44,005 nt of DNA from Chloroflexota bacterium (lineage in GTDB: Bacteria > Chloroflexota > Chloroflexia > Chloroflexales > Roseiflexaceae), in contig JAUQOW010000006.1 of assembly GCA_030550675.1 (NCBI GenBank), forward strand, positions 1 through 44,005, read 5' to 3'. The position numbers were made by a program, and so were the translations under genes. Every line of letters begins with the position of its first letter. Position 1 is the stretch's first letter. This document shows, piece after piece, positions 22,398 to 24,421 of this stretch. Under the pieces are notes generated by a model. It made no database searches, was not told where the DNA came from, and saw nothing but the letters and a program-made list of their open reading frames with translations.

Positions 22398-23447
22398 TCA
22401 CTCCAGCGTCAATCGCGCCACGCCGATAGCGGCGTCAGCCATGCCGTAGTAAACGTCGAACGCGCCGTCCTCACGCGGATCAACAGCGGTCGGGAAGACG
22501 ACATTCGGCACAACGCCGCTGCGTTCCTCCTCGATCTCCGGCGCCAGGATCGGCGTCGGCGAGCGATACACAACCTTCCGCGGATCTTCAACATCGAGGA
22601 TCATGACGCCTGCACAGTATCGCACAAACGGTTGGTGATCCGTCTGCTCAACGATCCGCCCTGAAACGCCATGATAGATCATCATCCACCCATACGGCGT
22701 GCGGAACGGCGGTGCGCCGCCGCCGATCTTCACCTCCTCCCACGGCGCCTGGGGACCGGCGACGAACGAATGGCTACGCCAGATCAGCAGTTCCGCCAGA
22801 TCCGCCTGCACCCGGTCGAGCGGGCAGTACGAAAGCCAGATACTGGCGCGGTGCTCGGTGATGCCAGCAGGAACAACCGGCATCCCGCCCTGCACGTGCG
22901 CCGGGCGATGGATCAGCGCCAGCGCCAGGCGCCCCTGCGGGTCGCGCACCGGCTCAGGAAACAGGAACGCATCCTTGTTATCATACAGGTTGAAATCGAC
23001 ACGCAGGCTCGGCTCAAAAGCGAACATAATCGGTCCAAGCCGCTCCCAGTGCAGCAGATCGGTTGAGAGCGCCAGCGCAATGCGCGGTCCTAACGGACCA
23101 TACGCCGTGTACGCCATCACGTAGCGCCCGATGGCCGCGACATATGTAATGCGCGGATCTTCGCAGCCAGCAGTGCGTGCATTCCGTTCATACGACTCGG
23201 TCGGCTCAAGGACGTACCCCATGCGCTCGACCGCAGCCGGATTGCCGCGGTCATCGAAGATCACGCGGGCAACCCCGATACGCGAATAGTTGCCGGCCGC
23301 CACGACGCGCGGAAAGAGATAGAGCGTCCCGTCCGGCGCCCGCGCCGCAGCAGGATTGAGCACGCCCAGGACTTCGTCAGGGTTCTGAGGATCGCCGCGC
23401 ATGATGGTGGAAAGACGGCGCATCTGTGGATTCAAGGTAGCATGCAT
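22398..23447 (-). CDS. GH130-family glycoside phosphorylase or hydrolase
   Basis: A 349-residue five-bladed beta-propeller enzyme of glycoside hydrolase family 130. Visible are the N-terminal LNPAAARAPDGTLYLFPRVVAAGNYSRIGVAR, the catalytic-site segment AGCEDPRITYV, DLLHWERLGP, NKDAFLFPEPV, the phosphate or sugar-binding GGGAPPFRTPYGWMMIYHGV, and the end FDVYYGMADAAIGVARL. The family cleaves beta-mannosides, most often by phosphorolysis of mannosyl-glucose or mannosyl-N-acetylglucosamine; some members hydrolyse. The exact activity cannot be read from sequence. I use the ATG at 23447. Upstream of the glycosyltransferase, it may take part in the same glycan pathway. Confidence 0.92.
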   Translation of the reverse strand: MHATLNPQMRRLSTIMRGDPQNPDEVLGVLNPAAARAPDGTLYLFPRVVAAGNYSRIGVARVIFDDRGNPAAVERMGYVLEPTESYERNARTAGCEDPRITYVAAIGRYVMAYTAYGPLGPRIALALSTDLLHWERLGPIMFAFEPSLRVDFNLYDNKDAFLFPEPVRDPQGRLALALIHRPAHVQGGMPVVPAGITEHRASIWLSYCPLDRVQADLAELLIWRSHSFVAGPQAPWEEVKIGGGAPPFRTPYGWMMIYHGVSGRIVEQTDHQPFVRYCAGVMILDVEDPRKVVYRSPTPILAPEIEEERSGVVPNVVFPTAVDPREDGAFDVYYGMADAAIGVARLTLE

Positions 23448-23458
23448 CCTTAACCTCG

Positions 23459-23467
23459 TGATATAAT
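23459..23467 (+). promoter_or_regulatory. Extended -10 promoter of the 25-residue gene
   Basis: TGATATAAT (23459-23467) is a perfect extended -10 element; no matching -35 box is seen, as is common with this class. The expected start near 23474 gives a 35-nt leader carrying AGAAGGGAG before the ATG at 23509. Confidence 0.6.
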
Positions 23468-23508
23468 GACACAACGATTGGCAGTAGCGCTACAGAAGGG
23501 AGCCGTGT

Positions 23509-23586
23509 ATGGGGGACAAAAGCCCGAAAAACGTCAGCAAGCAGAAGAAGCAGGCGGCAGCGAAGAAGAGCGCCGGGAAGAAGTAG
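23509..23586 (+). CDS. 25-residue lysine-rich protein beginning MGDKSPK
   Basis: A 26-codon ORF encodes a 25-residue protein starting MGDKSPKNV and ending KKSAGKK; ten of its residues are Lys, with Gln, Ala and Ser making up much of the rest. It has its own extended -10 promoter (23459), a good ribosome site (AGAAGGGAG, 7 nt spacing) and a 12-bp perfect stem-loop after the stop, so it looks like a real single-gene transcript. I recall short Lys-rich bacterial ORFs with the same MGDKSPK start in other genomes; this is memory, not a search result. Its extreme basicity suggests nucleic acid or ribosome binding. Function unknown. Confidence 0.75.
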   Translation: MGDKSPKNVSKQKKQAAAKKSAGKK

Positions 23587-23612
23587 CTCCGTGCTGATAC
23601 ATTCCGGCTCAC

Positions 23613-23649
23613 GAGGAAGACAGGGATCTCCTCCTGACCTGTCTTCCTC
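23613..23649 (+). terminator. Stem-loop after the 25-residue gene
   Basis: Perfect 12-bp arms, GAGGAAGACAGG at 23613-23624 and CCTGTCTTCCTC at 23638-23649, enclose a 13-nt loop. The following bases are pyrimidine-rich (TCGCTTCT) rather than a pure U-run. It is placed 26 bp after the stop and is the likely end of this transcript. Confidence 0.65.
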
Positions 23650-23751
23650 TCGCTTCTGGCGCGCCGCTGAGGATAGCACGCTTCCCGAGACCCGTCAAGA
23701 TCGCACAACCAAATGGTGACATCCCTTCCTGTGAAGATCGATCCGTGCGTA

Positions 23752-24195
23752 ATGTACCGCGCCTTCCGATCGCTCCTTCTGATCAGCCTGATCGCAGGGG
23801 CGACAGCCTGCACGCTGCCCACGCCGCCGCAGCCGACGACGCCACGCCCGACAGCGCCGGTCATTCTGGAAATCACTCCCGCCCCAACGCTGGATGTTGA
23901 TGCGACAGCGACGGCATATGCCAGCCTGCTGGCGCCATCGCCGACGCCTGCCGGGCTGTATATCGTTCAGCCTGGCGATACGCTGAGCGAACTGGCGATC
24001 AGGTTTGGCACAACGGTCGCTGACATTATGGCAGCCAATGGATTGACCGATCCTGATTCGCTCCAGATCGGGCAGCCATTGATTATTCCATCACAGGTTG
24101 ACACATCGCCATCGTTGCGCGCCTCGCCAACCGCCGCTTCGGGGCTGGCAGAAGCGACGCCAGCGCCTGCCACGCCAACGCTGGCGACACCGTAA
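23752..24195 (+). CDS. LysM-domain lipoprotein
   Basis: A 147-residue exported protein. Starting at the ATG at 23752 (in-frame upstream starts have no better ribosome site), it opens with MYRAFRSLLLISLIAGATAC, a lipoprotein signal with Cys20. A long Pro/Thr-rich linker follows, then one LysM domain (YIVQPGDTLSELAIRFGTTVADIMAANGLTDPDSLQIGQPLIIP split over about residues 70-113), and a second Pro/Ala/Thr-rich tail. LysM domains bind N-acetylglucosamine polymers such as peptidoglycan, so it probably tethers the membrane to the wall. No catalytic domain is present. Confidence 0.87.
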   Translation: MYRAFRSLLLISLIAGATACTLPTPPQPTTPRPTAPVILEITPAPTLDVDATATAYASLLAPSPTPAGLYIVQPGDTLSELAIRFGTTVADIMAANGLTDPDSLQIGQPLIIPSQVDTSPSLRASPTAASGLAEATPAPATPTLATP

Positions 24196-24243: not shown

Positions 24244-24283
24244 TCAAACGTCAATCCTTCAAAAATTGCCGTTCAGGCGTAAA

Positions 24284-24361
24284 GGAGGTGATGCCCATGA
24301 GTAATGAGCGTAAGGGCATCACCGCTGGGGTGAAGCGATAAGCTCATCCACGGTGATGCCC
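24284..24361 (+). promoter_or_regulatory. Two mutually exclusive hairpins controlling a ribosome site
   Basis: GGTGATGCCC occurs at 24287-24296 (overlapping the ribosome site AAAGGAGGTGAT) and again at 24352-24361. Its exact complement GGGCATCACC lies between them at 24314-24323. The middle segment can pair with the first copy (10 bp, occluding the ribosome site) or with the third (11 bp, freeing it), but not with both. This is the logic of an attenuator or translational switch. The middle segment also lies inside the tiny ORF, so a translating ribosome would disturb the pairing. Confidence 0.65.
24297..24341 (+). CDS. 14-residue peptide ORF with ideal ribosome site
   Basis: ATG at 24297 opens a 15-codon frame encoding MSNERKGITAGVKR. 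An in-frame ATG 6 bp upstream would give 16 residues. The ribosome site AAAGGAGGTGAT is nearly a full complement of the 16S 3' end, the strongest in the window. Together with the promoter at 24215 and the terminator at 24377 it forms a complete transcript of about 150 nt with no other gene in it. It could be a leader peptide, a small functional peptide, or a small RNA in which the ORF has a regulatory role. Confidence 0.5.
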   Translation: MSNERKGITAGVKR

Positions 24362-24406
24362 GGAATCAACAAAAAGCCCTCGCTGATGCGAGGGTTTTTT
24401 GATTCC
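24362..24406. terminator. Bidirectional intrinsic terminator
   Basis: CCCTCGC-TGAT-GCGAGGG (24377-24394) is preceded by five A and followed by six T. The flanking GGAATCA and TGATTCC extend the stem. It can end both the tiny plus-strand unit and the convergent ribosomal protein L25 gene, whose stop lies 16 bp away. Confidence 0.9.
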
Positions 24407-24421
24407 AAAACAACAGCGAGG

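Follow-up and report, generated by a model that had tools for sequence, protein, structure and literature searches.

The window, i.e. the whole 44,005-nucleotide stretch of DNA that was analysed, carries a real gene of the kind that standard annotation would skip, whose 25-residue product belongs to a family with homologues in many distantly related phyla. Our preferred reading, to which we give a probability of about 0.5, is that the product is a genuine cytosolic microprotein of an uncatalogued family with RNA as its target, the ribosome or a structured RNA being most likely. The features of the locus are collected in Table 1.

Table 1. The microprotein gene and its surroundings, in positions of the window.
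Feature	Position	Strand	Remarks
Microprotein ORF, MGDKSPKNVSKQKKQAAAKKSAGKK	23509..23586	+	25 codons and TAG; short subtype of the MGDK[ST]PK family
Extended -10 box, TGATATAAT	23459..23467	+	Sequence
Ribosome-binding site, AAGGGAG	23496..23502	+	6 nt 5' of the ATG
Perfect stem-loop 3' of the ORF	23613..23649	+	12-bp inverted repeat, 13-nt loop, no T-run
GH130-type gene, divergent	22398..23474	-	Longest ORF begins with TTG, and an ATG at 23447 lies in the same frame; named by similarity to a group in which one scanned neighbour matched Glyco_hydro_130
LysM lipoprotein-like gene, downstream	23713..24195	+	ORF; tblastn to neighbouring loci; LysM name read off the sequence of this copy

A sequence-only reading of this DNA had proposed an ORF starting MGDKSPK with its own extended -10 promoter, a spaced ribosome site and a perfect 12-bp stem-loop, and all four elements were found; the ten Lys that it gave to the protein are in fact nine. 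From the extended -10 box we infer a transcription start at about 23474, and a promoter scan of the region reported no sigma-70 -35 element on the + strand. The segment 23587-23680 folds with a z-score of -3.3. Lacking a T-run, the stem-loop within it does not qualify as a canonical intrinsic terminator, and a terminator scan found none. In the same-genus genomes G002 and G005, as in the window, the stem has 11-12 bp, and one base pair in G005 has undergone a compensatory change; the stem of G004 is imperfect.

Two further elements lie nearby. On the minus strand, positions 23670-23698 show a promoter-like TTGACG-17-TATCCT with a TG before the TATCCT, inside a block that each of the six same-genus genomes has kept, ORF-less ones included; a transcript from it would be antisense to the microprotein gene and head towards the GH130-type gene. 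Positions 24256-24420 (+) hold a structured RNA with a 14-codon ORF (MSNERKGITAGVKR), in which AAAGGAGGTGAT, matching the 16S tail, is a long Shine-Dalgarno sequence. Repeats (GGTGATGCCC/GGGCATCACC) flank this RNA, and a strong terminator comes after it. The RNA is 85-90% identical across same-genus and family loci and has no Rfam match; its 5' part also occurs near the MGDKNPK genes of loci L237 and L238.

Concerning coding capacity, the 301-bp region was matched by DNA in 11 of 40 relatives. Compared with the window, G002 shows 2 synonymous and 1 nonsynonymous changes, G004 6 and 1, and G005 5 and 3, with 0, 1 and 0 nonsynonymous changes, respectively, in the first 15 codons; the more distant family copies L005 and L008 vary more in the tail. 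The protein is thus under purifying selection among close relatives. The sequence-only reading had named the lack of homologues with the same start, together with a mutation pattern free of codon bias, as evidence against itself; homologues with that start exist, in Chloroflexota mostly with SD-like sites, and most of the differences between close relatives are synonymous. An ORF arising by chance within a conserved intergenic region, a reading that could invoke the -10 box and a block at ~23668-23704 conserved even where the ORF is missing, is contradicted by this synonymous bias and by homologues in many phyla that encode the same residues with different codons, and we consider it extremely improbable.

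The -10 box (TGNTATAAT) is kept in all six aligned same-genus genomes, including G001, which retains the frame without its ATG and ribosome site, and G003, which has lost the whole ORF with the flanking -10 box still there. Since the box persists where the ORF or its start is lost, its conservation does not prove that it serves the microprotein ORF alone. The same losses make the gene dispensable in that genus. In locus L004, from G005, an insertion of ~150 bp separates the -10 box from the ORF.

Another possibility is that the ORF is a leader peptide, whose translation would control the downstream LysM gene. In many loci of the window's bacterial family the short subtype indeed lies beside a LysM lipoprotein-like gene (tblastn), which is retained in the two genomes without the ORF or its start. 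No common downstream gene was found across phyla, however, and what is conserved is the amino acid sequence and not just the act of translation, which makes this role improbable.

The reach of the family was established by pattern and profile searches. The window contains a single match to the MGDK[..]PK pattern, and none of 100 shuffles contains any. Among 400 genomes from the phylum, a degenerate MGDK-x-PK pattern matched 23 and the reversed-pattern control 1, and 22 of the 23 matches (the exception being L035) are short Lys-rich ORFs, most of them with SD-like sites. Scanning one genome per species gave at least 115 stretches and a viral scan 8. Altogether, the degenerate scans define a family of at least 125 loci (some fetched twice; genome_contigs supplied 92 and viral contigs 2) and at least 116 distinct proteins of 18-49 aa, with ~30% Lys and the start MGDK[S/T]PK. 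The rule for keeping a match (18-60 aa, at least 20% K+R with three K in the tail, and S/T at position 5) set aside 30 matches and also dropped true variants such as MGDKNPK.

According to the record labels, which can be wrong for MAG bins, carriers belong to Chloroflexota, Verrucomicrobiota, Myxococcota, Actinomycetota (Terrabacter, Humibacillus, Blastococcus), Acidobacteria, Bacillota and others; the labels also name Hydrogenedentota, Candidatus Binatia, Abditibacterium, Oligoflexaceae, Syntrophomonadaceae and Desulfosporosinus. Locus L107, labelled Betaproteobacteria, has the Verrucomicrobial 5' element described below, and its bin is probably mislabelled or mixed. With the strict pattern, and counting the probe in each case, matches came from at least 18 of 57 genomes of the Sorangium order, at least 3 of 59 of the Humibacillus family and at least 4 of 145 of the Verrucomicrobial phylum (these last matches untranslated); the 21 matches of the first two groups all proved to be family members, some of them at loci already found. 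A profile search of 82 genomes from the order to which the window belongs, which depends less on the exact motif, gave 22 matches with E up to 0.1 in 18 genomes, three of the matches with Asn at position 5, and separates a short subtype (NVSKQKKQ) from a long one (ANQKKATQKQ...AAKQVTKK). All 12 genomes in which copies were counted have a single one, and the profile search found two copies each in G006, G008, G030 and G033.

A member (MGDKSPKNKEAKKKK...) is present on the IMG/VR contigs L036 (2261-2374) and L041, the former copy adjoining a cold-shock-like and a sigma-factor-like gene. Plasmid and phage tblastn searches with four members gave no match, a weak negative given short, low-complexity queries.

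At the level of sequence, the MGDK[ST]PK proteins are homologous across phyla. No such family is present in Pfam, NCBIfam or PHROGs, where 39 scanned members gave only weak single matches, and the PDB has no match to the family. The string MGDKSPK was not found in the literature searched, GDKSPK gave a sole, unrelated match (on game-based learning), and searches on the family and on smORFs yielded nothing on MGDK[ST]PK proteins. Rfam showed no match for the window or for eight Verrucomicrobial loci, and nothing except one tRNA on prophage-like loci. The earlier suggestion of a widespread uncharacterised family is strongly supported: the first seven residues are conserved across many phyla, yet the protein is missing from the main libraries, a rare instance in which gene length alone hides a widespread function.

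The window protein has the MGDK[S/T/N]PK start at its initiator Met, Lys 11 and Gln 15, with Ala at position 16. For the 35 proteins of 40-41 aa the mean column information is 2.55 bits versus 1.63 in shuffled sequences (largest shuffle 1.67), the most informative columns being K11, Q15, K16, K27 and K34, and K11 and Q15 each present in 34 of 35. Because this value lies far above the within-sequence shuffles, the tail is conserved beyond mere composition. Among the 116 proteins listed, K/R occupies position 11 in 106, Q15 is found in 78 and K16 in 81, the median net charge is +9, and only 10 of 4286 residues are aromatic or Cys. Ser, Thr or Asn occupies position 5, all good helix N-caps. AlphaFold2 predicts, for a 46-residue member (not the window protein) with 18 sequences, one helix spanning 6-35 with a mean pLDDT of 74 and a pTM of 0.36; a helix is unlikely in the Pro-rich Chloroflexota members (MGDKTPKRPPKPKKPK).

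As for the genomic context, the gene stands alone: a Pfam scan of nearest neighbours (109 proteins, from 202 references listed) revealed no family matching more than 3 of the 109. Of 114 loci, 37 have a perfect inverted repeat of at least 8 bp after the gene, whereas single-base shuffles predict 2.7. Genes for RRM RNA-binding proteins, identified by motif, were seen at 9 of 117 loci at a distance of up to 5 kb, against ~0.34 expected at 0.54 per Mb (30 carrier genomes, the nine included, have 82 domains in ~156 Mb); L047 and L157 apparently show one and the same arrangement, so the nine are not all independent. Near five loci there are DEAD-box helicases, which from motif and similarity we take to be of the RhlE type (background unmeasured). 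The window's genome has no RRM. An RNA link through RRM co-occurrence was also sought in Chloroflexota, where the result went against it (6 of 22 carriers versus 167 of 400 genomes overall).

Composition and context also bear on two other targets. A histone-H1-like nucleoid protein, with its basic tail on DNA and its constant start as a docking motif, would agree with a composition near that of H1-type tails (K, A, P) and with the second genes found under the Verrucomicrobial 5' element, which resemble H1 tails, e.g. MAKKAKVKSAAKKKPAAKKKKK. None of 39 members gave a Pfam Hc1 or histone match, though, and the recurrent neighbours are genes for RNA proteins and not for DNA proteins, so we regard this assignment as unlikely. 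We likewise see only about one chance in five that the protein is directed to some other polyanion or acidic protein surface, such as polyphosphate, the membrane or an acidic partner. Composition alone does not discriminate among polyanions, the near-invariant MGDK[ST]PK suggests contact with a protein or small ligand, and the length range of 18-49 aa is compatible with such a role; on the other side, nothing positive speaks for such a partner, and the sequences show no apparent hydrophobic face or signal peptide.

In one Verrucomicrobial group the gene is preceded by a distinct 5' element. A 7-bp hairpin with loop GRGAAAC...AU is common to 17 aligned leaders, ~45-60 nt upstream of the start; of the 19 leaders aligned, L114 and L156 deviated in their core spacing, and the model was built without them. 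Pairing is retained in 88% of cells, seven of them changed on both sides, above both shuffles and slid controls, and the model-fitted alignment gives 89% with six such cells. In 16 genomes, picked because their gene carries the element, the model found 19 strong matches (at least 36 bits; the next has 27), three more than the 16 that were expected. All 19 lead Lys-rich microproteins, the three additional matches being in front of a second gene, and ten weaker matches inspected had no family ORF. The second copies (L071:3883-3919, L084:1903-1939 and L184:1501-1537) precede genes for H1-tail-like microproteins, and an inverted repeat comes after each. Most leaders also show a TTTACA box ~36 nt upstream of the hairpin at near-constant distance. 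Reading the hairpin itself as an ECF-type -35/-10 promoter is disfavoured by the two-sided pairing changes and the separate upstream TTTACA box, and a hairpin at the 5' end of the mRNA is the favoured interpretation of the element. Other Verrucomicrobial members lack it (19 matches with E <0.001 among ~21 in 46 sources); it was not found in the window and has no Rfam entry.

In the preferred reading, RNA binding, the near-invariant N-terminus (MGDK, then Ser/Thr/Asn-Pro) would cap a helix and supply a specific contact, while the strongly basic segment that follows, with Lys 11, Gln 15 and often Lys 16, would clamp the phosphate backbone of RNA. The copy in the window would be made from its own short transcription unit with the stem-loop at its end. 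Nucleic acid binding, suspected earlier from the Lys content, fits the composition and, weakly, the RRM excess near some loci; that RNA or the ribosome is the most likely target is suggested by the charge, by a structural hint, itself weak, and by a genomic context that does not hold throughout the family. Against it stand the missing RRM link in Chloroflexota, the lack of a recurrent neighbour, the dispensability of the gene, the Pro-rich Chloroflexota members, for which the predicted helix is unlikely, and the pTM of 0.36.

More tentatively, the family may be an ancient cross-phylum microprotein tuning the state of RNA or the ribosome, tied to RRM proteins in some lineages and, in one Verrucomicrobial group, governed by its own promoter and 5' mRNA hairpin, possibly as autoregulation; this control region would be common only to other Lys-rich microproteins. 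The hairpin offers a second, regulatory handle on the family, and the isolates that carry the gene (Sorangium, Terrabacter, Blastococcus and Haloferula, going by their record labels) make it directly testable.

Among known systems, Hc1-type histone H1-like proteins are Lys/Ala/Pro-rich and devoid of aromatic residues, whereas the MGDK[ST]PK proteins are much shorter and have a near-invariant start. The SRA/RpsV-type stationary-phase ribosome-associated proteins are small and basic, as is the family, from which they are set apart by the lack of a Pfam or NCBIfam match. The small ribosomal proteins bTHX (Thx), ~25 residues long, very basic, with a constant start and encoded by a single gene, resemble the window protein in all these respects and differ in the motif, with no curated profile match among 39 members (Pfam, NCBIfam). 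Members of the family may well appear as unnamed smORFs in catalogues of microbial smORFs such as GMSC (PMC11364881).
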